Shown: one piece after another, positions 1,324-36,042 of the stretch
Layout of the letters: every line of letters starts with the position of its first letter
How positions within the stretch are numbered: position 1 is the stretch's first letter
Source of the DNA: a virus
Length of the DNA stretch: 36,170 bases
IMG/VR virus record: IMGVR_UViG_3300009009_000028
Location: 1 to 36,170 of that record
Direction: 5' to 3' (one strand)
Translations under genes and position numbers: made by a program
Notes under the pieces: model-generated
What the model was told of the DNA's origin: nothing
Databases searched by the model: none
Seen by the model: the letters and a program-made list of their open reading frames with translations, nothing else

Positions 1324-2373
1324 TTAAGTGGTGACGAGGGCCGGGGCTTCCGGGGCTGCGGCTTTCTTGAGATCGGGATACGGGAGGGGTTCCCCTTTCG
1401 TGGTGGCTTCGGCATTTGCCATCGCCTTGCGGGCGTAATCGGCCTTTTCCTCGGCAGCCTTGACGCGCTTCTTCTCGCGTTCGACTTTCCGCTTGTTGGC
1501 CTCGTCCTTCTTGGCCTGTTCTCTGGCCTCGAAGTCTGCCTTCTGGAGCTCAACCGACTGGGCATCCAGATGCAGCATCCACTGAATCGCGACATTGAAG
1601 GCATCTGCCGGAGTCTTGATTTTCAAAATCTTGACCAGCTCCGGGCCGATCTCCTTCTTCTCCATCTCGTCCTTCAGCTCTTTCAGCTTCCGGAGATGGG
1701 CCACCGGCTGAAACTGAACCTGCGCCGCATCCTGGCCTTCGCGCTTCGCCTTCTTGATCTCGGCGACCCGGCTATTAACCAGTGGGATAAACTCATCCGG
1801 AGCCTGGGTCATGGCGCGGTCGATGAAGTTCGCCATTTCTTCGGGCGGGAGTTTGGCCAAGGCGTAGGCGTTCGAGAGGGTGATCTGACCGTTGTTGATG
1901 AGTTCGAGAATTGTGGTGTTGTCGATGCTGTTGAGTCCGAGACGCTGAGAAATCCACTGTGCTGATTTCCCCAATCTGCGGGCCAGCTCGGCCTCGGTCA
2001 TGAGGGGATTGCGCGCGAGGATGCGTTTGAGCTGTTGGCTGTATTCCGCCGGCCGGGTCTCGATCTTGTGGATGTTGGCGACAATCTGGGCTTCGAGAAC
2101 CTGATCCTCATTGAGAGGAACCACGTCCACGCCGATTTCCGAAATCCCGGCGTCCTTTGAAGCACAGAAACGGTGAAGGCCGTCGACCAGCTCAAAATAC
2201 TCCTCCTTCGTCTCCTCATCCGTGCGCGCCCGTACCGTGATTGCGCCCATGAATCCTTTTTCTCGGATTGAGGCGACCAGTCCCAGATAGTCCTCGGACT
2301 GTCTGTTCACAGTCCGTAGGGCCACCGGGTTCTCCCTGATCTGCGAAATCAAAACCTTACGAAGTTCTCCCAT
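1324..2373 (-). CDS. ParB/Srx-fold DNA-binding protein (ParB-like)
   Basis: A 349-residue protein of the ParB/RepB/Spo0J superfamily. Residues about 5-105 form the ParB/sulfiredoxin-fold domain: 'I--NP' near 10-16, the loop motif DGLHRF at 64-69 and VANIHKIETRP after it. Residues about 125-146 (MTEAELARRLGKSAQWISQR) form a KorB-type helix-turn-helix. From about 235 on the chain is highly charged and alpha-helical (Lys/Glu/Ala coiled coil). The ATG at 2373 is chosen because AGGAGG sits 8 bases upstream; the frame is open 26 codons further but without a ribosome-binding site. In phages such proteins act in partition, gene regulation or as nucleases. No ParA is visible here, so regulation of the adjacent divergent region is a reasonable inference. 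Confidence 0.88.
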   Translation of the reverse strand: MGELRKVLISQIRENPVALRTVNRQSEDYLGLVASIREKGFMGAITVRARTDEETKEEYFELVDGLHRFCASKDAGISEIGVDVVPLNEDQVLEAQIVANIHKIETRPAEYSQQLKRILARNPLMTEAELARRLGKSAQWISQRLGLNSIDNTTILELINNGQITLSNAYALAKLPPEEMANFIDRAMTQAPDEFIPLVNSRVAEIKKAKREGQDAAQVQFQPVAHLRKLKELKDEMEKKEIGPELVKILKIKTPADAFNVAIQWMLHLDAQSVELQKADFEAREQAKKDEANKRKVEREKKRVKAAEEKADYARKAMANAEATTKGEPLPYPDLKKAAAPEAPALVTT

Positions 2374-2437
2374 AAAAACTACCTCCTGTAAATGATTTTT
2401 GGCCCCGAGGCCGTTTAATAAATGATTCCCAAAATCA

Positions 2438-2473
2438 ATTATGGAAATCAAATCATGATTTGATTTCCATAAT
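2438..2473. repeat. 36-bp perfect palindrome containing TGATTTGATTT
   Basis: An uninterrupted perfect palindrome of 2 x 18 bases centred between 2455 and 2456. Each half contains AAATCAAATC/GATTTGATTT. It lies about 65 bases upstream of the ParB-like ATG, inside the predicted leader of that transcript. It could be an operator for a dimeric DNA-binding protein, plausibly the ParB-like protein itself, or a leader RNA hairpin. Confidence 0.85.
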
Positions 2474-2492
2474 CGTAAAGTAGGGAATATCC

Positions 2493-2525
2493 ATTTATAT
2501 ATACGGTTTTTTCCGCTTTTTGTCC
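2493..2525 (-). repeat. Left arm of 33-bp mirrored inverted repeat
   Basis: This arm matches the reverse complement of 2693-2725 at 30 of 33 positions. The three mismatches cluster in the middle (arm positions 20, 22 and 23). The conserved blocks are ATTTATATATACGG, a T-run and CTTTTTGTCC. Confidence 0.85.
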
Positions 2526-2526
2526 C
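2498..2526 (-). promoter_or_regulatory. Candidate leftward promoter for the ParB unit
   Basis: On the minus strand GGGACA (2521-2526) and TATATA (2498-2503) are separated by exactly 17 bases, matching sigma70 TTGACA/TATAAT at 4 of 6 positions in each box. Transcription would begin near 2491, giving a leader of about 118 bases that contains the 36-bp palindrome. A further upstream TATATATA copy at 2543-2550 may mark a second weak promoter. Confidence 0.5.
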
Positions 2527-2691
2527 AAAAGTTTTTTTACCTTATATATAGGCCGTTTGCCGTTTTATGACTAACTGCTTTTTAGTTCTTCTATATTTTT
2601 CTGATAACTTCATTCTTGAAAACGTGAAGTAATTAAAAAGTAGTCAGTAAGTAAATAGTAAGTATTCAGAATTATTCAAAAAATTTTTTAA

Positions 2692-2720
2692 CGGACAAAA
2701 AGTAGTAAAAACCGTATATA
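2692..2720 (+). promoter_or_regulatory. Candidate rightward promoter for the primase unit
   Basis: CGGACA (2692-2697) and TATATA (2715-2720) are 17 bases apart, the mirror image of the leftward candidate. Predicted start is near 2727, with a leader of about 97 bases that holds the TGATTTGATTT dyad. It is supported mainly by conservation of both boxes and spacing between the two arms. Confidence 0.5.
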
Positions 2721-2725
2721 TAAAT
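2693..2725 (+). repeat. Right arm of 33-bp mirrored inverted repeat
   Basis: Partner of 2493-2525 in inverted orientation, 167 bases away, 30/33 identical. Identity covers GGACAAAAAG at one end and AACCGTATATATAAAT at the other; the middle has drifted. This pattern suits protein contacts at both ends rather than a simple transposon end, as no target duplication or transposase is present. Confidence 0.85.
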
Positions 2726-2751
2726 ATAGCTCGCTTTATCCTACCATATAA

Positions 2752-2788
2752 TGATTTGATTTATATAACTGTTCTGCAAATCAAATCA
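2752..2788. promoter_or_regulatory. Inverted repeat of the TGATTTGATTT motif (operator candidate)
   Basis: TGATTTGATTT (2752-2762) and its reverse complement AAATCAAATCA (2778-2788) flank a 15-base spacer. The same 11-mer forms the core of the palindrome at 2438-2473 on the other side of the control region. A further, shorter dyad ATTTGACAAAT (2804-2814) lies just before the primase ribosome-binding region. As DNA these are repressor/activator-type sites; as RNA the pair would form a leader hairpin. Confidence 0.65.
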
Positions 2789-2823
2789 AAATTAAAAAAA
2801 TCGATTTGACAAATCAAGAGATT

Positions 2824-5505
2824 ATGCCAACTAAAACAGAAGCCATAAAAAGATTTCTAACTGCGAAGACCCATCCTGATTTAGCAAATCTCTATTCATA
2901 CGAAATGGAGTGCCAAGTCAACGTTGCCCAAGACGGTGGCTCCAGAATTGAAGGAGATTTTCAAGGTCGTAAGTGGCGGGGCTGGACAGACGACTTAACG
3001 ACTTGGAAACCTTTTCGGATTCCAAGAAATGCTTCAACAAATCCAGAATACTTCGATTCTGATATGTCTTTTTCCCTCGAAGAACATGTCGAGGGAATCG
3101 GGATGACTGGATGGAATTGGGTTAAAAAAGTTAGCTGTTGGGTTGCTTTTGATTTTGATGCCATCGTTGGACATTCAGATAAGCATAGTAAAAAATTAAC
3201 AGAGATACAGTTAACCCAAATTAAGGAAACGGCTTTTAAGGTTCCGTGGGTTACGATTCGAAAATCAACCAGTGGAACTGGTTTGCATATTTATGTCTTT
3301 TTAGACAATGTCCCAACAGAAAATCATAATGAACATGCTGCGCTTGGTCGAGCCATAATAGGTGTATTGTCTGCAATCACAGGACAAGATTTTAAAAATC
3401 AAGTAGATATATGCGGCGGAAATATGTGGGTCTGGCATCGAAAGATGCAAGGAACAGATGGACTCACTGTAATAAAACAGGGTGAAATCTTTTATGACAC
3501 GCCAAAGAATTGGCGGGATCATATTAAAGTTATAACTGGTCACCGTAGAAAAAATCTTCCTCAAAATATAGAGTCAATAGATTCTTTCGAAGAACTATCC
3601 GGGCAGTATCCAAGAGTACCGCTTGATGATGAACACAAAAAATTAATAGACTATCTTAGTAAAGAAAATGCACTTTGGTGGTGGGATCAAGATTACCATG
3701 CTCTTGTAACCCATACAGTATGTCTTAAACGCGCACATGAAGCCTTAAGTCTTAAAGGTATTTTTGAAACAAATAGTCCGGCGTCAAATTTAAATGAGCA
3801 GAATGTTTTTGCATATCCATTACGCAAAGGTGGGTGGGTTGTTCGAAGATTCACTCCAGGCGTCAAAGAACACGATTCTTGGGATCAGGATGGGGCCGGA
3901 TGGACTCGATGTTACTTAAATAGGCCACCAACGTTTGCTTCCGCCTGTAAGAGCTTCGGAGGAATTGAAGACCCTTCAGGAGGATTTATTTTTAGAGAAG
4001 CAGAAAGTGCTATTCAAGCTGCCCAATCTTTAGGTGTCCATCTAAATGTTGGAACACCACAGCGTGGAAGAGAAACAAAGTTAAATTTGCATAAAGATGG
4101 ACGATTGATTGCGGAAATCGAATATAAAGCTGCCGACCGCATCGAAGAAATGAGCGGATGGCTTCCAAAGAAAGGAAAGGTTTGGGTTAAGATTCAAAAT
4201 CTTCAATCAGTTTCCCCGAATGAAAGTGAACATCAAAGCTACGATGATCTTGTTCGACATTTGGTTACAACAACAAATGAAGATTACGGGTGGATGATTA
4301 AGAGTGACAATATCTGGAGACTTGAACCCCTCGCCCATATTAGAGTTGCTCTTGGGGCGATGGGACTAAATACAAAAGACATAACAAACGTTCTTGGGTC
4401 AAGTGTTTTTAAATGCTGGAATATTGTCAATAAACCCTTTCAGCCTGAATACCCTGGAGACAGAGAGTGGAATCGTAATGCGGCAAGATTGCGATTTGTT
4501 CCTTCTCAATATAGTGATTCTTTACATTATCCTCACTGGAAAAAAATTCTGGATCATTGTGGGAATGGTCTTAATGATGCTATAAGAAGGAACGGGTGGT
4601 GTAAAGCAAATGGTATTTTAACCGGCGGAGACTATCTTAAATGTTGGATAGCTTCTCTCTTTAAGGAACCACATGAACCTCTCCCATACCTATTTCTTTA
4701 TTCAATGCAGCAAGGAACTGGAAAATCAGTCTTTCATGAGGCTCTTTCCCTTTTGCTTACGCGAGGTTATCAACGTGCAGATGCTGCTCTTATATCCCAA
4801 GCAGGATTTAATGCAGAGCTTGAGGGATCTATTATCTGCGTTGTGGAAGAGACAGATCTCCGTAAAAACCAGCAAGCCTATAATAGAATTAAGGATTGGG
4901 TTACAAGTCGCGATCTTTTGGTACACTGTAAAGGAAAAACACCTTACCATATCCCTAACACTACCCACTGGATTCAGTGCTCCAATAATCATCAGGCTTG
5001 CCCGATCTTCCAAGGGGACACTCGAATTACGATGGCATACGTTGAACCTTTAGATCCTCTTGATTTAATCCCTAAGAAAAGGCTTATTCCTCTTCTTGAA
5101 AAAGAAGCGAGTGACTTTCTCGGGGCTATAATGAATTTGGATATACCACCATCTGTGGACAGATTAAATGTACCTGTTATTGAAACCGAAGATAAGTTAA
5201 TGCTCCAAAAACTTAATGAGACACCTCTTGAACGATTTATGGCCGACGAGTGTATTCAAAAGCCTGGAATCATGATAAAATTTTCAGAGTTTTATGAAAG
5301 ATTTAATGAATCACTTGACCCGAGTGACGCTTCAATGTGGTCTAAAATTAGGACGCGGCGGGAACTTCCTTCAAACTTTCCATATGGAAGACATCATGGA
5401 ACTGGTCAATTCTATATTGGAAACATCGCCTGGAAAGATGATTCTGATCCACCGGGACAGAGATTTATCTTAAAAGATAACTACCTTGAAAATGAAAACA
5501 ATTAG
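2824..5505 (+). CDS. Primase-helicase: AEP-type primase fused to SF3/D5-like helicase
   Basis: An 893-residue replication protein. The N-terminal half has archaeo-eukaryotic primase (prim-pol) marks: a metal-binding DFD in WVAFDFDAI (110-112), then RKSTSGTGLHIYVF with the SGxGxH motif (His about 155), and NMWVWHRKM around 200-208. The C-terminal half has a superfamily 3 / poxvirus D5-like helicase: Walker A QQGTGKS (GTGKS 631-635), Walker B IICVVEET (about 670) and sensor motif THWIQCSNN (about 716). It would make primers and unwind DNA at the phage origin. A TTG at 2806 is in frame, but the ATG at 2824 has AAGAG just upstream and is preferred. It is the first gene of the rightward unit and directly adjoins the putative origin. 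Confidence 0.9.
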   Translation: MPTKTEAIKRFLTAKTHPDLANLYSYEMECQVNVAQDGGSRIEGDFQGRKWRGWTDDLTTWKPFRIPRNASTNPEYFDSDMSFSLEEHVEGIGMTGWNWVKKVSCWVAFDFDAIVGHSDKHSKKLTEIQLTQIKETAFKVPWVTIRKSTSGTGLHIYVFLDNVPTENHNEHAALGRAIIGVLSAITGQDFKNQVDICGGNMWVWHRKMQGTDGLTVIKQGEIFYDTPKNWRDHIKVITGHRRKNLPQNIESIDSFEELSGQYPRVPLDDEHKKLIDYLSKENALWWWDQDYHALVTHTVCLKRAHEALSLKGIFETNSPASNLNEQNVFAYPLRKGGWVVRRFTPGVKEHDSWDQDGAGWTRCYLNRPPTFASACKSFGGIEDPSGGFIFREAESAIQAAQSLGVHLNVGTPQRGRETKLNLHKDGRLIAEIEYKAADRIEEMSGWLPKKGKVWVKIQNLQSVSPNESEHQSYDDLVRHLVTTTNEDYGWMIKSDNIWRLEPLAHIRVALGAMGLNTKDITNVLGSSVFKCWNIVNKPFQPEYPGDREWNRNAARLRFVPSQYSDSLHYPHWKKILDHCGNGLNDAIRRNGWCKANGILTGGDYLKCWIASLFKEPHEPLPYLFLYSMQQGTGKSVFHEALSLLLTRGYQRADAALISQAGFNAELEGSIICVVEETDLRKNQQAYNRIKDWVTSRDLLVHCKGKTPYHIPNTTHWIQCSNNHQACPIFQGDTRITMAYVEPLDPLDLIPKKRLIPLLEKEASDFLGAIMNLDIPPSVDRLNVPVIETEDKLMLQKLNETPLERFMADECIQKPGIMIKFSEFYERFNESLDPSDASMWSKIRTRRELPSNFPYGRHHGTGQFYIGNIAWKDDSDPPGQRFILKDNYLENENN

Positions 5506-5943: not shown

Positions 5944-6407
5944 TTAATGAGATTGCAGAAAGTTACAATTTGGACCCGGCTCTTGTATACGGTGTTTGTA
6001 AGCGAGAGTCAGGTCTCAATAAATTTGCTGCAAGATATGAGCCAGTATACAAATATTTGTATTTTCCTGAAAAAGTAAAACCAGAAAACTGTTCGCTTGC
6101 AACTGAGATAGTTTTTCAAAAAATGAGTATTGGCATTATGCAAGTCATGGGAGCCGTTTTTAGAGAATATGGATATAGTGGCTGGCTCTCGACTATTTTT
6201 CCGGATCTTAAAACTCAATTAACATACGGATGTAAGCACCTTTCAATTAAAATAAAAAAATATGGAATCACAAATGGGATTGCGGCCTATAATTCTGGTT
6301 ATCCAAGATACATTGATAACGGGATTTTGCAAAATCAAAAATATGTGAATGACATTCTTATTTACGCTGGAGAATACAAAAATGTCCGACTTGATGACTT
6401 TATTTAA
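5940..6407 (+). CDS. SLT-type lytic transglycosylase (candidate endolysin)
   Basis: A 155-residue single-domain protein of the lysozyme-like SLT family, which cleaves the MurNAc-GlcNAc bond of peptidoglycan with formation of 1,6-anhydroMurNAc. Visible motifs in order are KRESGLN with the catalytic Glu at 23, SIGIMQVMG (63-71) corresponding to the 'GLMQI' motif, and IAAYNSG (114-120) with a final KYVNDIL helix. There is no signal peptide, so export would need a holin or another route. GGAGG precedes the ATG and the start overlaps the previous stop. It sits in the early/replication unit, away from the membrane-protein cluster at 8.3-9.6 kb, which is unusual for lysis genes. Confidence 0.88.
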   Translation: MINEIAESYNLDPALVYGVCKRESGLNKFAARYEPVYKYLYFPEKVKPENCSLATEIVFQKMSIGIMQVMGAVFREYGYSGWLSTIFPDLKTQLTYGCKHLSIKIKKYGITNGIAAYNSGYPRYIDNGILQNQKYVNDILIYAGEYKNVRLDDFI

Positions 6408-7266
6408 TGATCTTGATAGGCAATCAACAGCCCCAAGAGACCAGAATATTTTAAAGGCTCCGTTTGGATACCCAGGAGGAAAAACGAGAAGCCTTCCAAA
6501 TATTCTTAAACATCTTCCCTATAAACCCACATATGTTGAAGCCTTTGGTGGATCAGGAGCACTCCTTCTCGCTCGTCAACCTGTTACCTTAGAAGTCTTG
6601 AATGATCGTTACGCCGGGGTTGTAGACTTTTATAGATGCTTAAGGCATCCGGAAAACTACAAAAAACTAATAGACTATCTCTCTCTTTGTCCACATAGTA
6701 GAGAAGATTTTGTTGAAGCTAAGATGACCTGGTGCGACGAACCCGATCCAGTCATTAGGGCAGCAAAATGGTATTATATGGTTCGATACAGTTTTGGAAG
6801 TCTTGGTAGAAATTTTGGGAGGGCAACCAAGGCCGCCGGAATAATTTCTGGTAAAATTGCCAACAGCTTAGATATTTTTCCAGATTTACATGCACGACTC
6901 CGAAAAGTCCAGATAGAAAATCAAGACTGGAGAGATTGTCTCTTAGATTATGACTCATATGAAACAGTTTTTTATCTTGATCCTCCGTATATTGACACCC
7001 ACCAAGGGACATTTAAACATAATATCCTGAGAAAAGACCACGAAGATTTACTAAATCTTATTTTTAGATTAAAAGGTTTTGTTGCCCTTTCGGGCTATTC
7101 AAATCCTTTTTATGAAAATCATCCTTGGGACGCAAGATATTCCTGGGATTCATTCGTTAGCATCGACAGCTGTTCTTTTACAGAGAATAACAGGAAAGAA
7201 TGTTTCGAGGGGCTTGTCAAGAGACAGAAAGCCAAGGAGGTTTTGTGGATAAAAGAAATCCATTAA
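6382..7266 (+). CDS. Dam-like N6-adenine DNA methyltransferase (D12 class)
   Basis: A 294-residue MT-A70-unrelated, Dam/DpnM-type enzyme that transfers methyl from S-adenosylmethionine to adenine N6 in a short DNA site. Motifs: APFGYPGGK (26-34, motif X), VEAFGGSGALLL (52-63, SAM-binding motif I), VLNDRY (72-77) and the catalytic YLDPPY (198-203, motif IV). No restriction enzyme gene is nearby, so it is an orphan methylase, probably for evasion of host restriction or replication timing. The ATG at 6382 has GGAG 9 bases upstream; the frame is open 11 codons further. It overlaps the SLT gene by 26 bases. Confidence 0.92.
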   Translation: MSDLMTLFNDLDRQSTAPRDQNILKAPFGYPGGKTRSLPNILKHLPYKPTYVEAFGGSGALLLARQPVTLEVLNDRYAGVVDFYRCLRHPENYKKLIDYLSLCPHSREDFVEAKMTWCDEPDPVIRAAKWYYMVRYSFGSLGRNFGRATKAAGIISGKIANSLDIFPDLHARLRKVQIENQDWRDCLLDYDSYETVFYLDPPYIDTHQGTFKHNILRKDHEDLLNLIFRLKGFVALSGYSNPFYENHPWDARYSWDSFVSIDSCSFTENNRKECFEGLVKRQKAKEVLWIKEIH

Positions 7267-10740: not shown

Positions 10741-13122
10741 TCAGAAAGGGCGGTATTGGTTCCTTCCACCTTTGCGACCGATTGCAACAAATCCGGTTCC
10801 ACCTTCTTCAAGCTGTGTGCTTCCGGCACGAGTTCCAAATTCTGAACCAAGTGCCGTTGGAGCTGCACCAGTGATAAATGGAGAAACATCGAAAGCGTTA
10901 TATCCACGGCCCTTTTCACCGGCGGCCAAACTCGTCACCGGAAAAGCAATTTTACCGGGCGGAAGATTATCCGCAGATGGTATCCTTACAAGAGTATAAT
11001 CTTCTTCGTATCCATAGATTTCAGCAGGAGAAAAAAGAGGAATTGGATCTGTTGATTTAAGTTTCTCAAGTTTTTTATCTATAGAGCTACTTTCAACTGC
11101 AACTTTTCCTCCACTTATCCCCTGCACAACAAACCCTTGTCGGCTTTTGCTTAAAACCTGTGAATTTTTTAGAGTTCCAACATTGTCTCCTATTTTTGTA
11201 ACTGGACTATCAAAGTAATTAGGATGATTCTGTGGATTTAAATCATAATTACACCAGACATCTTCACCAGCATGGAAGCCATATCCATAGTATCCTACTG
11301 TTGTTTCTTTTGTAAAAAGAATCTGACCTGGCTCAATATTATCATCTCTGGGTGTCCCAACGTGATAAAGATCAATATCTCCAGTCCCCGTTTTATGATG
11401 ATTTTTTTCTACCCAGTAGATTTCATAGGCATTATATGGTGTAATGCTACCGGACTCAATATGTATATTAACGCCTCCCTCAGTGTCCTCCATCGTTGAG
11501 ATCGTTTTATCTAAATCTGAATCACACTCAGATTTAGCGAGTCTGGCAGCAATAGGGCCATTATATCCATTCGTTTTGCCATCGCCACCAAGCCAGTATT
11601 TTGGATCCTCGATAGGCTGGCCTCCGGAATGATCTCCAGCTTTGGAGCCAAGCTCCGCCTCAATGGTAATTTGATTATCTTCAAGATTGTGTTTTACTGA
11701 TTCCGCAAATCCACGAATTGCATGTGTGCTGAGTGTTGGATGAGAAAACTGTACCAGATCGTAGGCTTCAGTTTTTAAAGATGTCAAAAATGTTTGGGCA
11801 ACAATCTTTCTCCAAGAATTTGCATATCTGTATGCCCAAAAAAGAGAAGCAATCTGTATAGATTTCAAAGTTGTATAAATAAAAAAGTCATAATCTTGCG
11901 ATATAACACCATAGCGTATAAGATTATTTTTTATAGTGGTTGTTTGTTCTGCTTCTTTTTGTCCACTATAGTCTTTTTTCCATTTTGCATTAAAAACAGT
12001 CACAATATCTTCTGTCTCTGTGAAAGAGAGTTCTACACTTTTTAACTTAGTTTCATTTAGGGTTATAGCTGCATCCGTCACAGTATTAGTGAAAAGCGTC
12101 CGGATATACGCTGTGCCATTTTTTAGAAAAAGAAGACACCTTGCCTGCCAGGCAATCTTTTCACAAAGAGGAACAGCATCTTCTTGGGTAAATAATGCAT
12201 AATGTGCAGGAGTCACAGCTGTTGCTGTTTTTGCAGCAGTAAAAGAAGCTGAATCAATATTTAAATCTGTAAAAGTATCCAAAATCCATTCTATTTGAGA
12301 TATTGGATTACTTGAAAGGCCACCGCCACAATCAACAAAAATCTCGTCACTCCATCCTCCGTCTTTAATAGAACTCAAAGGTGTCGGGAAAGATAGTATT
12401 GTTACAGCATGGCTGTCAATAGTGTCATTCCTGATTGAATAAAATCCAGCAGGAACAATAAAAAGATCATCGTCTTTTCCACCGTAACATTGACGATGTG
12501 CATAGGCGGCAAAGACTGTTACTGTTGAAAAAACAGAAACAACATATTCAGCGGGGTCTTCCTTTATCCTGACTGTAGGCACCCTTAAAGGGGAGCCAAA
12601 GATGCTTGGAAAAGGACTATTATATGCTGAAGCTAAAAGATCAGCAACATAATTGTCATTATTTGGATCGTCCGAAGGAGAAAAGCCAATCTCACCCTTT
12701 CCTTGAATAGACTCGACACTCCCAGAAAAGATTCTTGTTTCCTCGCTCCAGCTTAAAGGCCCGGCCATTTTTCCATAGTGGACAATTGTCGCATCACTGG
12801 AAGCCAAATCATAATAATGGTGCCAGAGGACACAAATAGTTCCTTCAAGAATTTCAGTGTTTACTTTAGTCTTTAAGGAGCTGTCTGTATCATCAAGCTC
12901 AAAATTTATACTCGCGACTTCTCCGCTTGATCCAATCTTCCCGGATGAAGAAACATCACTGACATGGATAAGCGCAACCTTACATGCCTGTGAATTAAAA
13001 GTGTAGTCTACTTCACTATAATAAATAACTCCACTCTCCCAACGGATTTCCAAAATCTTAATGGGTTGTGTTCCCTTAGGAGTATTTGATTTTGTTTTTG
13101 TATTCGGAGTAAGAGTTCTCAT
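10741..13122 (-). CDS. Tail hub / tail-tip protein
   Basis: A 793-residue protein with the build of a siphovirus tail hub (gp27/Dit-Tal neighbourhood). The N-terminal 130 residues carry beta elements and ASINFELDDTDSSLK, typical of hub proteins that begin with a surface-integral-like domain. The central part has alternating beta and helical segments, and the C-terminal 250 residues are fibre-like with many Gly. No lytic motif was seen. It overlaps the protease gene by four bases (ATGA). Order after tape measure and tip genes fits a hub or connector that carries receptor-binding proteins. Family name not certain. Confidence 0.75.
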   Translation of the reverse strand: MRTLTPNTKTKSNTPKGTQPIKILEIRWESGVIYYSEVDYTFNSQACKVALIHVSDVSSSGKIGSSGEVASINFELDDTDSSLKTKVNTEILEGTICVLWHHYYDLASSDATIVHYGKMAGPLSWSEETRIFSGSVESIQGKGEIGFSPSDDPNNDNYVADLLASAYNSPFPSIFGSPLRVPTVRIKEDPAEYVVSVFSTVTVFAAYAHRQCYGGKDDDLFIVPAGFYSIRNDTIDSHAVTILSFPTPLSSIKDGGWSDEIFVDCGGGLSSNPISQIEWILDTFTDLNIDSASFTAAKTATAVTPAHYALFTQEDAVPLCEKIAWQARCLLFLKNGTAYIRTLFTNTVTDAAITLNETKLKSVELSFTETEDIVTVFNAKWKKDYSGQKEAEQTTTIKNNLIRYGVISQDYDFFIYTTLKSIQIASLFWAYRYANSWRKIVAQTFLTSLKTEAYDLVQFSHPTLSTHAIRGFAESVKHNLEDNQITIEAELGSKAGDHSGGQPIEDPKYWLGGDGKTNGYNGPIAARLAKSECDSDLDKTISTMEDTEGGVNIHIESGSITPYNAYEIYWVEKNHHKTGTGDIDLYHVGTPRDDNIEPGQILFTKETTVGYYGYGFHAGEDVWCNYDLNPQNHPNYFDSPVTKIGDNVGTLKNSQVLSKSRQGFVVQGISGGKVAVESSSIDKKLEKLKSTDPIPLFSPAEIYGYEEDYTLVRIPSADNLPPGKIAFPVTSLAAGEKGRGYNAFDVSPFITGAAPTALGSEFGTRAGSTQLEEGGTGFVAIGRKGGRNQYRPF

Positions 13123-14246
13123 ATCACATTCCCAAAAAGAGTATTTGCACTTTGGTTTGAAAGACAGTCCTCACAGTTGTCAAAAATGCGATCAGGAGAA
13201 TGTGTGATTATCCCTGCTGCCTCTTCTTCAGCATTATAATAACAGACACCGTCAACAAGAATAACGTCACCGCTACCGTCTGGGACATTAATAGCCCCAT
13301 CCCATTCTTCAATATATAGGAGATCGGCAATGTCACTGATATGTGAAACAAGTGCTATTAGTCCATCGTCACTTCCGGCAAAAAGAATTCCGATTAATTT
13401 CCACTGCCCACCAGTTTTGATAAAGACACCGCTGCCTGAATCTCCACCAGATGTAAATCGCTCAGTAGCAGTTATTGCAATGACATTTTCATAATAAGCA
13501 GTATTCTCAGGAGTTTCTGCCCCAAAATAAACATTTCCATTCGCTTCTGTACTAAGAATAGTTCCTATCGAACGGCCTGTTGTTCTGCCAACCTTCTCGA
13601 CAGTATTTCCAGCAGCATATTCTAATTTTTCTGCGAATGGAAAAACTCCACCGCGAACAAGATCTTGGATACCAGGTCTAAAGATATTAGAACCTTCTAA
13701 GGTTCCGATTGCAACATCAACAGTATTTACTCCATCAGGGCCAAAAATCGTTCCAACAGCTCGCTTCCCGGTTCCGACCATATCTCGTGGATATTCTCCG
13801 CCATCAAGCGGTGAAGGCTGTAACATATCAACATCTAAAACATTAGAAACCCAATAAAAAGGTAGCAGTGATCCAGGGCCTAATTCTGGGCCAATAACAT
13901 GGTTACATGTTAAGGCAACAATAGATTGATCAAAAGAATCTTTAACAAAAACTCCAAGAGTCCCGGCTCCAGAATCTGAAGGAGCGTAGCTAACACCACC
14001 AACAACTGGTCGGTGTCTAATGCTATGAATATCACAGCCTCCATTTTCTTGATTACAGTATGTTAGATTCCGCATTTTAGGGATTACAATAACATCTGTT
14101 TTTGTCCCATCTGAAAGGACTTTTGGAATCCTATCGCTTTCTTTGAGAAAAGATAGCGGAACTTTCTTTTCAACCCCGACAATTAATTCTTTGCCGCGGC
14201 GAAAAGAAACCGTCACATTCTTCATTTTATGGATTTCTCGAATCAT
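13119..14246 (-). CDS. Trypsin-like serine protease in the tail module
   Basis: A 375-residue protein with a complete chymotrypsin-fold catalytic triad: His116 in VALTCNHVIG, Asp177 in VDVAIGTLEG, Ser270 in SGGDSGSGVF. The KVGRTTGRSIGTI block (219-231) before the Ser loop is typical of bacterial and plant NAL1-like trypsin peptidases. The first 75 residues are a non-protease extension, and the last 75 are acidic with several Cys. There is no signal peptide. It is sandwiched with four-base overlaps between a repeat protein and the tail hub, so it is probably a virion or assembly protease: maturing tail proteins or cutting a host surface protein. A start at MKNVTV (ATG 14225) is possible. Confidence 0.88.
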   Translation of the reverse strand: MIREIHKMKNVTVSFRRGKELIVGVEKKVPLSFLKESDRIPKVLSDGTKTDVIVIPKMRNLTYCNQENGGCDIHSIRHRPVVGGVSYAPSDSGAGTLGVFVKDSFDQSIVALTCNHVIGPELGPGSLLPFYWVSNVLDVDMLQPSPLDGGEYPRDMVGTGKRAVGTIFGPDGVNTVDVAIGTLEGSNIFRPGIQDLVRGGVFPFAEKLEYAAGNTVEKVGRTTGRSIGTILSTEANGNVYFGAETPENTAYYENVIAITATERFTSGGDSGSGVFIKTGGQWKLIGILFAGSDDGLIALVSHISDIADLLYIEEWDGAINVPDGSGDVILVDGVCYYNAEEEAAGIITHSPDRIFDNCEDCLSNQSANTLFGNVI

Positions 14247-34338: not shown

Positions 34339-36042
34339 TTAGTGTAGTGTCACACCCGGTTTTCGGGTTGTGAAGGTTGCACCCGGTCGCCGGGTAGTGA
34401 ATGTGACGCGAACTCGGCCCTGTGCCAAAAAAGTCATAACAACAACAAGATCAACACCGAGGCCAGAATCTGTTAGACCAAAAACATTTTGGATTTGTGA
34501 AATCAATTCTAAAGCTGTTCCGGCATCTGGTACTGTAACATTTGCTGTGATACTTGTTAAAACGTCGTCCCCTGATCCGGCATCAAGAATAGAAACATAT
34601 TCACCTAATTGTTCGATAGTTGCTTCATCAAAGCCGGAACCAGAATCAAGAATGCTTATAGTATTTAGTAATTGTTGAATTAAATCTTCGCCTGATCCTG
34701 TATCGAGAATACTAAAAATATTTTGTAACTGTTGGATTAAATCCCCACCGGTGCCAGAGTCTGAGATTGATAGTGTTACTGTGGCCCCAAGAGTTTCTGC
34801 TCCTGAACCAGAATCATAAATAGTTTTAAGCTCGCCCTCTTGAACAACACTTATAGACTCAATACCGACGCCAGAGTCTAAGATACTTAAAGATACCAAC
34901 AGCTGTGTAAGAGTATCGACACCGGAACCAGAGTCTATAATATTTAAAGCGGCGGAGATCTGATTTACTAAATCTGTTCCTGAGCCAGAGTCCGAAAGAG
35001 TTATTAGGATGTATGATGAAACACTATCGACACCTGCTCCTGAGTCTGGGATATTTAAAGAAGCTAAAATACTGCTGACAGTATCTACTCCAGCACCCGA
35101 GTCTAAAAGATTTAAAACATCTTGAAAAACGCTAACGACATCGTCACCGGAGCCTGAATCCAAAATAGTTTTTAAAAGAGCAACAAGAACATCTACTACA
35201 TCGACCCCGGCTCCAGAGTCTAAGATACTTAAAGATGCCAAAAGCTGAGAGACTAAATCTGAGCCGGCTCCGGAGTCCGAAATATTTAAAGAGGCTAAAA
35301 GCTGATTTAATAAATCCGTTCCGACTCCAGAGTCAGAAACATTTAATGAAGCCAGAATATCGCTAACAGCATCTTCACCAGCGCCGGAGTCTGTAATCTC
35401 TTTAAAGAGTAAAATAAAAATATCTATAGCATCGAGACCAGAGCCAGAGTCTGAAAGGCTCAATAAAGCTGAAATACTTATTGCTTCGACTCCTGAGCCA
35501 GAGTCTATTAGAGATATAAGAGCCTGTACTTGGGCTTCATCAAGACCAGAACCGGAATCCGAGAGGCCAAATAAAGCCGAAATACTTATTGCTTCGGTAC
35601 CAGAACCGGCATCCAGAATCCCTTTTAAAATAAAAAGAGATATTTCATCGACTCCTGATCCTAAGTCTGAAAGACTTAAAGATGCTGAAATACTTGCTAC
35701 TTCTGTCCCGGCTCCAGAATCTTGAAGACCTAAAGAGGCTAAAAGCTGATTCAATAAATCCGCCCCAGAGCCGGAGTCAGAAATATTTAAAGATGCCAGG
35801 ATATTTGCAATCGAGTCAGCACCTGAACCACTTTCTTGTAACGGGAGACTTGCAGCTCCTGAAAAAGTCTCGGCACCCAATCCTGAGTCTGAAAGAGCAA
35901 GGACATTACTAATGCCACCGATGATATCCGCTCCGGAGCCTGCGTCCGTGAGGCTAACCAAAACAGGCTGTGGCGCGGAAAACGGAAATCGTATCCCGCC
36001 GCGAGAGGTATAGTTGAATGGCCGTCTAAAAACGTGAGCCAT
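34339..36042 (-). CDS. Fibre-like protein of 27 DSGSG repeats
   Basis: A 567-residue protein, nearly all tandem repeats. After a basic N-terminus (MAHVFRRPFNYTSRGG) come about 27 units of 18-21 residues with the core 'DSGSGxD-h-h-x-x-h-x-x-x-L-x-h-x'. The last 25 residues carry a doubled motif, TFTTRRPGA / TFTTRKPGV. The unit would form a beta-solenoid or strand-turn rod. Charge pattern and Gly/Asp turns could bind Ca2+, though this is not RTX. It is upstream of the terminase, not with the tail tip, so it may be a head fibre or decoration. The ATG at 36042 lies just after the previous stop. Confidence 0.8.
   Translation of the reverse strand: MAHVFRRPFNYTSRGGIRFPFSAPQPVLVSLTDAGSGADIIGGISNVLALSDSGLGAETFSGAASLPLQESGSGADSIANILASLNISDSGSGADLLNQLLASLGLQDSGAGTEVASISASLSLSDLGSGVDEISLFILKGILDAGSGTEAISISALFGLSDSGSGLDEAQVQALISLIDSGSGVEAISISALLSLSDSGSGLDAIDIFILLFKEITDSGAGEDAVSDILASLNVSDSGVGTDLLNQLLASLNISDSGAGSDLVSQLLASLSILDSGAGVDVVDVLVALLKTILDSGSGDDVVSVFQDVLNLLDSGAGVDTVSSILASLNIPDSGAGVDSVSSYILITLSDSGSGTDLVNQISAALNIIDSGSGVDTLTQLLVSLSILDSGVGIESISVVQEGELKTIYDSGSGAETLGATVTLSISDSGTGGDLIQQLQNIFSILDTGSGEDLIQQLLNTISILDSGSGFDEATIEQLGEYVSILDAGSGDDVLTSITANVTVPDAGTALELISQIQNVFGLTDSGLGVDLVVVMTFLAQGRVRVTFTTRRPGATFTTRKPGVTLH
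34417..35946 (-). repeat. DSGSG tandem coding repeats
   Basis: About 27 direct repeats of 54-63 bases in frame, conserved at the Asp-Ser-Gly-Ser/Ala-Gly core and diverged elsewhere. Length varies by whole codons, with some units inserting one or two codons, so the array has been shaped by unequal recombination and selection for the frame. Confidence 0.9.

Follow-up and report, generated by a model that had tools for sequence, protein, structure and literature searches.

The window analysed here is the whole IMG/VR record IMGVR_UViG_3300009009_000028, a stretch of 36,170 bases. Its leftward unit is headed by a gene for a 349-aa ParB/Spo0J/KorB-like protein (1324-2373, minus strand), with an ATG at 2373 behind an AGGAGG, and its rightward unit is headed by a gene for a primase-helicase-like protein (2824-5505, plus strand). 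The ParB-like product matched the Pfam families ParB_N (1.7e-9) and HTH_ParB (4.6e-7), a profile search added the structures of Spo0J, ParB, Noc, and KorB, and its AlphaFold2 model (pLDDT 82) retrieved ParB and KorB with Foldseek. It is a true ParB/Spo0J/KorB homologue with a helix-turn-helix (HTH). The primase-helicase-like protein matched DUF5906 and a PHROG annotated as 'DNA primase', and was 36-85% identical to its relatives. These matches confirmed the divergent pair of neighbours named in the original prediction, which was made from the sequence of the window. The primase genes of two relatives, L035:5001-8720 and L142:5001-8714, contained an in-frame insert of ~350 codons at the same place (after NTTHWIH and NTAHFVH), whose first residue is Cys and whose terminal His-Asn is followed by Cys; judged by its sequence, it looks like an intein. 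The window had no tRNA or tmRNA gene. No DNA match to it was found among deposited phages (50,697 records, in which the phage group has no close relative), and as to cultured relatives the deposited phages yielded just distant protein matches.

The region between the two genes contains two inverted 33-nt arms, 2493-2525 and 2693-2725, located 167 nt apart and complementary at 30 of 33 positions (91%). Each has an outward -35/-10-like pair, as originally described. On the left, GGGACA (2526-2521, minus strand) is followed after a 17-base spacer by TATATA (2503-2498, minus strand); on the right, CGGACA (2692-2697, plus strand) precedes TATATA (2715-2720, plus strand) with a spacer of the same length. 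Aligned with each other, the left and right sides of the region scored 55; the best of 100 dinucleotide shuffles reached 30. The hexamer pairs of the window are themselves weak relative to the sigma-70 consensus, and a consensus scan did not list them; we treat them as predicted promoters, from which the putative transcription starts were placed.

Beyond each arm lies a dyad. The dyad of the parB leader (2438-2473, minus strand) is a perfect 36-bp palindrome (18+18) with the word GATTTGATT in sense orientation at 2446-2454 (minus strand) and its inverted partner at 2457-2465 (plus strand). In the dyad of the primase leader (2752-2788, plus strand), the sense copy of GATTTGATT is at 2753-2761 (plus strand) and the inverted partner at 2779-2787 (minus strand). 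The 11-mer TGATTTGATTT has exactly four copies in the 36 kb, at 2445-2455 (minus), 2456-2466 (plus), 2752-2762 (plus), and 2778-2788 (minus), so that, as had been claimed, the same 11-mer builds both dyads, and its copies are limited to them. The 9-mer GATTTGATT was confined to the same four places; of 100 shuffled versions of the window, 3 had four or more copies of it, a count that leaves their clustering out of account. With b standing for TGATTTGATTT on the plus strand, the left dyad reads b'-b and the right one b-b'. Therefore, the mirror image that the original prediction saw in the region holds for the arms and fails for the dyads, whose halves come in opposite order on the left and on the right.

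Two smaller dyads with the same core, overlooked earlier, stand by both start codons: GATT(TTGGG)AATC on the minus strand near the parB start (2424-2436) and, immediately ahead of the primase gene, GATTT(GAC)AAATC (2803-2815, plus strand). In the window alone the small dyads are not significant, as ~60 such matches occur per 36 kb. The 2300-2900 interval had no terminator-like site; a pair of intrinsic terminators or attenuators was rejected for lack of a G+C-rich stem with a T run.

Relatives were collected by searches with the ParB-like and the primase proteins. The resulting non-redundant set comprised 85 intergenic regions of the divergent parB-primase type, of which 67 did not exceed 720 bp. 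Some loci of the pool came from the pattern GATTTGATT N3-33 AATCAAATC in viral contigs, among the matches listed; every region that was kept, the pattern-derived loci included, had to have both parB and primase homologues. The layout persisted down to a ParB divergence of ~45% identity, and the two-sided control region belongs to a widespread, uncultivated phage group. An assembly artefact was considered and dismissed: the arms are imperfect, differ from phage to phage, and recur at one place in many independent metagenomes. A ParB profile search found no host genome among the GTDB representatives, which restricts bench work to synthetic reporters.

We observed that the left and right halves of one phage resembled each other far more than the halves of different phages, with median alignment scores of 42 and 19, respectively. 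A phage's own right half was ranked at the top in 31 of 42 phages. For the excised arms, the own score exceeded every comparison with another phage in 25 of 29 cases; the exceptions were L030, L031, L033, and L035, which are mutually close relatives. In the 17 phages where both arms aligned over the -10 box, the 17-base spacer was 81% identical within a phage, compared to only 28% between phages. The -10 boxes of relatives were often good (TATAAT, TATAGT). Since the arms match within a phage and not between phages, they change together, including bases that a promoter does not need. Either one phage-specific factor that reads both arms or a conversion process could produce such matching, or both could act. 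A palindrome CGTAAGTC...GACTTACG of ~28-31 bp was seen in or beside the arms of L030, L031, L033, L035, L088, L093, L094, L010, and L114; GTAAGTC, which belongs to the context of this palindrome, was present in 26 halves with 1.8 expected.

The 9-mer most enriched in the region across relatives was again GATTTGATT, found in 76 of 134 outward-read halves versus 0.6 expected and nearly missing outside the region (5-36 kb were read per phage). The leader word can be described as a tandem 4-base word of the form x-Y-x, mostly GATTTGATT, in sense orientation. Of 67 phages, 46 had it in this orientation on both leaders and 57 on one side or both; the other 10 regions had no recognised word. Among leaders with one orientation, 52 were sense-only and 2 antisense-only. 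Where both orientations occurred, the antisense copy came first on the parB side (23:3) and second on the primase side (24:1). The first word started a median of 36 nt past the predicted -10 on both sides, and words typically lay ~30-50 nt past the -10 box, between the promoter arm and the start codon. Thus the related promoters and related leader elements noted originally on the two units recur in other members of the group, where the two sides of a phage change jointly, and this partly supports the original interpretation; the comparison with related phages proposed at that time revealed paired change of arms and leader elements, and no relatives with a single arm and no paired change.

Such likeness might come from homogenisation only, i.e., gene conversion or template switching that keeps the inverted halves alike without any joint regulatory meaning. 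The identity of spacer bases outside the promoter consensus (81%, with arm likeness reaching 41/42 in L107) goes beyond the need of a promoter and fits such a process, as does the extension of left-right likeness through the dyad in L116, L123, and L145. On the other hand, the same word was retained in phages whose two arms share nothing, the words hold their sense orientation and their position in the leader, and the layout outlasts the ParB divergence given above. We consider homogenisation as the sole explanation very unlikely.

An inverted partner (within 70 nt, with at most one mismatch) accompanied 30 of 52 left words and 31 of 51 right words, where ~1 was expected; ~40% of the words had no partner within one mismatch. 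The dyads had spacers from 0 to 31 nt and two polarities, and the spacers showed no helical phasing (Rayleigh p ~0.08 and ~0.91). Bases flanking the word paired within the dyad in 15 of 22 cases on the left (5.8 expected) and in 12 of 18, plus 3 G-U pairs, on the right (4.8 expected). The pairing flank base varied, even between the sides of one phage; for example, it was A on the left and T on the right in L081. A signature of RNA was sought in the mismatches beside the stems, with a null result (23 G-U and 24 A-C).

The core of the word is variable as well. Alternative cores GATG, GAAG, GGTC, GAGT, and GATA kept the tandem x-Y-x build with a period of 5 or 6. Among the phages with the GATT core, 40 of 44 had a GATT word on both leaders. 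In 13 of the 23 non-GATT phages the two leaders had one sense tandem word in common, compared to 3.0 expected from cross pairs, where part of the shared words may fall in the arms. On a tree built from ParB and primase the core switched at least six times.

Relatives had the small dyads by the start codons as well. Of 55 GATT phages, 18 had a hairpin GATT(n3-8)AATC no more than 48 nt from the parB start, where the next unrelated 4-mer reached 4, and 30 had one equally close to the primase start, where unrelated 4-mers reached ~4. In GATG and GATA phages, the core of this hairpin tracked the core of the word, the off-diagonal counts being near zero. L025 has an extra gene (152 codons) ahead of the primase, and the words and the small hairpin precede that gene, so these elements go with the beginning of the unit and not with the primase. 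The end of the extra gene (L025:4543-4998) reads like a helix-turn-helix (KTKKEAAEWLGLGVAYVYNLLRK); it had no Pfam match.

A shared reader of the two leaders could account for these patterns. From two outward promoters in matched inverted arms, the parB unit would be transcribed to the left and the primase unit to the right, presumably early in infection. Each transcript would open with a leader bearing the common directional word, a 4-base core with a period of 5-6 bases; the inverted partner, present in ~60% of cases, would allow a leader hairpin, and the core would often recur in a hairpin at the start codon. One trans-acting factor would read both leaders, probably in RNA, and would set elongation or translation of both units together, either upward or downward. 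A change in the specificity of this factor would force a change of both leaders and so give rise to the paired core switches.

The appeal of this model is that one step explains why the cores switch in pairs, why the words stand in sense orientation in the leaders, and why they are nearly confined to this region. It is favoured by the paired change of the arms together with the sense word on both leaders (46/67), and by the word common to both leaders of 13/23 non-GATT phages (3.0 expected) with the six or more core switches. The repetition of the core in the start-codon hairpin, the place of the L025 elements before the extra gene, the unphased dyad spacers of 0-31 nt, and the pairing of word-flanking bases point the same way. 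Against a reader at the RNA level, G-U is no commoner than A-C beside the stems, so nothing marks pairing in RNA over pairing in DNA. The ~40% of words without a partner and the 10 of 67 regions without a recognised word also count against the model. The sense orientation could have been inherited from an ancestral inverted duplication, and the pairing of flanking bases could be a product of template-switch correction of palindromes. On balance, this is the likeliest of the readings considered, with slightly less than an even chance that the word on the two leaders is read at the RNA level by a single trans-acting factor of the phage.

The main alternative is that the words are a set of DNA operators of the ParB/KorB-like neighbour. 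On either leader the protein would bind the words as DNA, repressing or clamping onto both promoters, and the core switches would follow changes of its HTH. The neighbour has the domains to be expected of such a protein (ParB_N and HTH), the dyads are palindromic, and an RNA-specific signature is absent. KorB of plasmid RK2 is a ParB-family CTPase sliding clamp that acts from a palindromic operator and silences promoters at varying distances (PMC11790492); silencing of this type would tolerate variable spacing, and KorB shares its superfamily with the neighbour in the window. However, the OB operator of RK2 is a palindrome of fixed spacing with the core TTTAGCGGCTAAA (PMC11790492), whereas the dyads here have spacers of 0-31 nt, two polarities, and frequent single half-sites. 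The 52:2 bias towards sense-only leaders, the many single words without a partner (ParB sites being palindromes), and the absence of helical phasing also speak against operators. The best ParB alignment columns tracked the split into GATT and non-GATT phages no better than the best columns of the primase control, and copies of the core at start codons would be superfluous for an operator. The operator reading is in our judgement a distinct possibility, if not a probable one.

Related operator copies at two early promoters, specific to the immunity of each phage, are well known from OL and OR of lambda. The elements here are likewise related, phage-specific copies at two promoters, here predicted ones; unlike OL and OR, which overlap the promoters, the words follow the promoter and lie in the predicted transcribed leader. 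Neither a repressor gene nor an integrase was recognised among the genes scanned.

The centre of the region has an AAGTA/CAGT tandem repeat, two copies of 22 nt, at 2627-2669 (plus strand). Among relatives, AGTNAGT was found between the arms of many phages (36 of 134 outward halves, 9.2 expected), and AGT-type tandem repeats are possibly a melting or binding region. The region might accordingly be viewed as a bidirectional replication origin, with an AT-rich CAGT/AAGT centre that melts and with the outward words as loading or initiator sites for the primase-helicase. The adjoining primase-helicase gene, the AT-rich centre with its tandem AGT repeats, the outward symmetry, and the GC skew, which becomes positive to the right of the region, are all in keeping with an origin. 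Still, the change of skew also tracks gene direction, the words sit beyond the promoters, and an origin would have no need of start-codon hairpins with the same core. We find an origin unlikely.

Returning to the shared reader, a close parallel is with phage lambda, where the N protein, a phage factor, reads the matched sense elements nutL and nutR on the leaders of two early operons, and where nut-type element and factor change together between phages. Here, too, matched leader elements in sense orientation stand on two operons; unlike nut, their core repeats recur at start codons. Family scans of the genes examined detected no N-like arginine-rich protein. The original prediction held that no described system has this layout, which goes too far: paired leader elements on divergent early operons are known from lambda (nutL/nutR) and from HK022 (putL/putR, PMC9378689), so that the class of layout, in which two divergent operons have matched leader elements, is a known one, while the element itself had no match in Rfam or in the papers found. 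The RNAs of putL and putR are related, ~70 nt long, and hairpin-forming; they are located downstream of the early promoters PL and PR and suppress pausing and termination (PMC9378689). Each put RNA consists of two stem-loops that act on the host RNA polymerase without a phage factor (PMC9378689). This precedent indicates that a pair of leader RNAs can serve two early phage operons (PMC9378689). Similarly to put, the elements here are related, potentially hairpin-forming, and phage-specific, and lie beyond both divergent promoters, in this case predicted ones (sense word on both leaders in 46/67). Unlike put, which is longer and has two stem-loops, they are built from a short tandem word whose partner is optional, and both divergent promoters here lie in one 450-bp region.

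No part of the window matched an Rfam family at gathering score, a result that bears on put only if Rfam includes a put model. Literature searches on nut-like divergent regions, phage ParB operators, concerted inverted repeats, and DUF5906 together with ParB yielded nothing on this system. No family or paper was found to match the element, the switching of its core, the second copy at the start codon, or the phage-specific matching of the arms. We tentatively propose, as less likely than not, that these leader elements form a new family, in which a 4-base word, repeated in tandem, stands in the RNA of the two divergent transcripts and again at start codons, with a predicted phage-encoded reader and with at least six specificity switches copied onto both leaders. 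The set offers dozens of natural variants of one control region, with at least six independent core switches. With leader changes that are matched, the putative reader could be found by covariation, and the coupling of the divergent operons is directly testable. If based on RNA, the system would be another architecture beside nut and put.

Three other genes of the window may be mentioned. A D12-class (Dam-like) adenine methyltransferase is encoded within the rightward unit (6349-7266, plus strand). A gene on the minus strand among the structural genes (13119-14246) had a weak match, below cut-off, to a trypsin-like peptidase (Trypsin_2). Finally, a 567-aa protein (34339-36042, minus strand) contains many repeats of the SDSGSGxDxxxxxLASLxx type and had no Pfam match.
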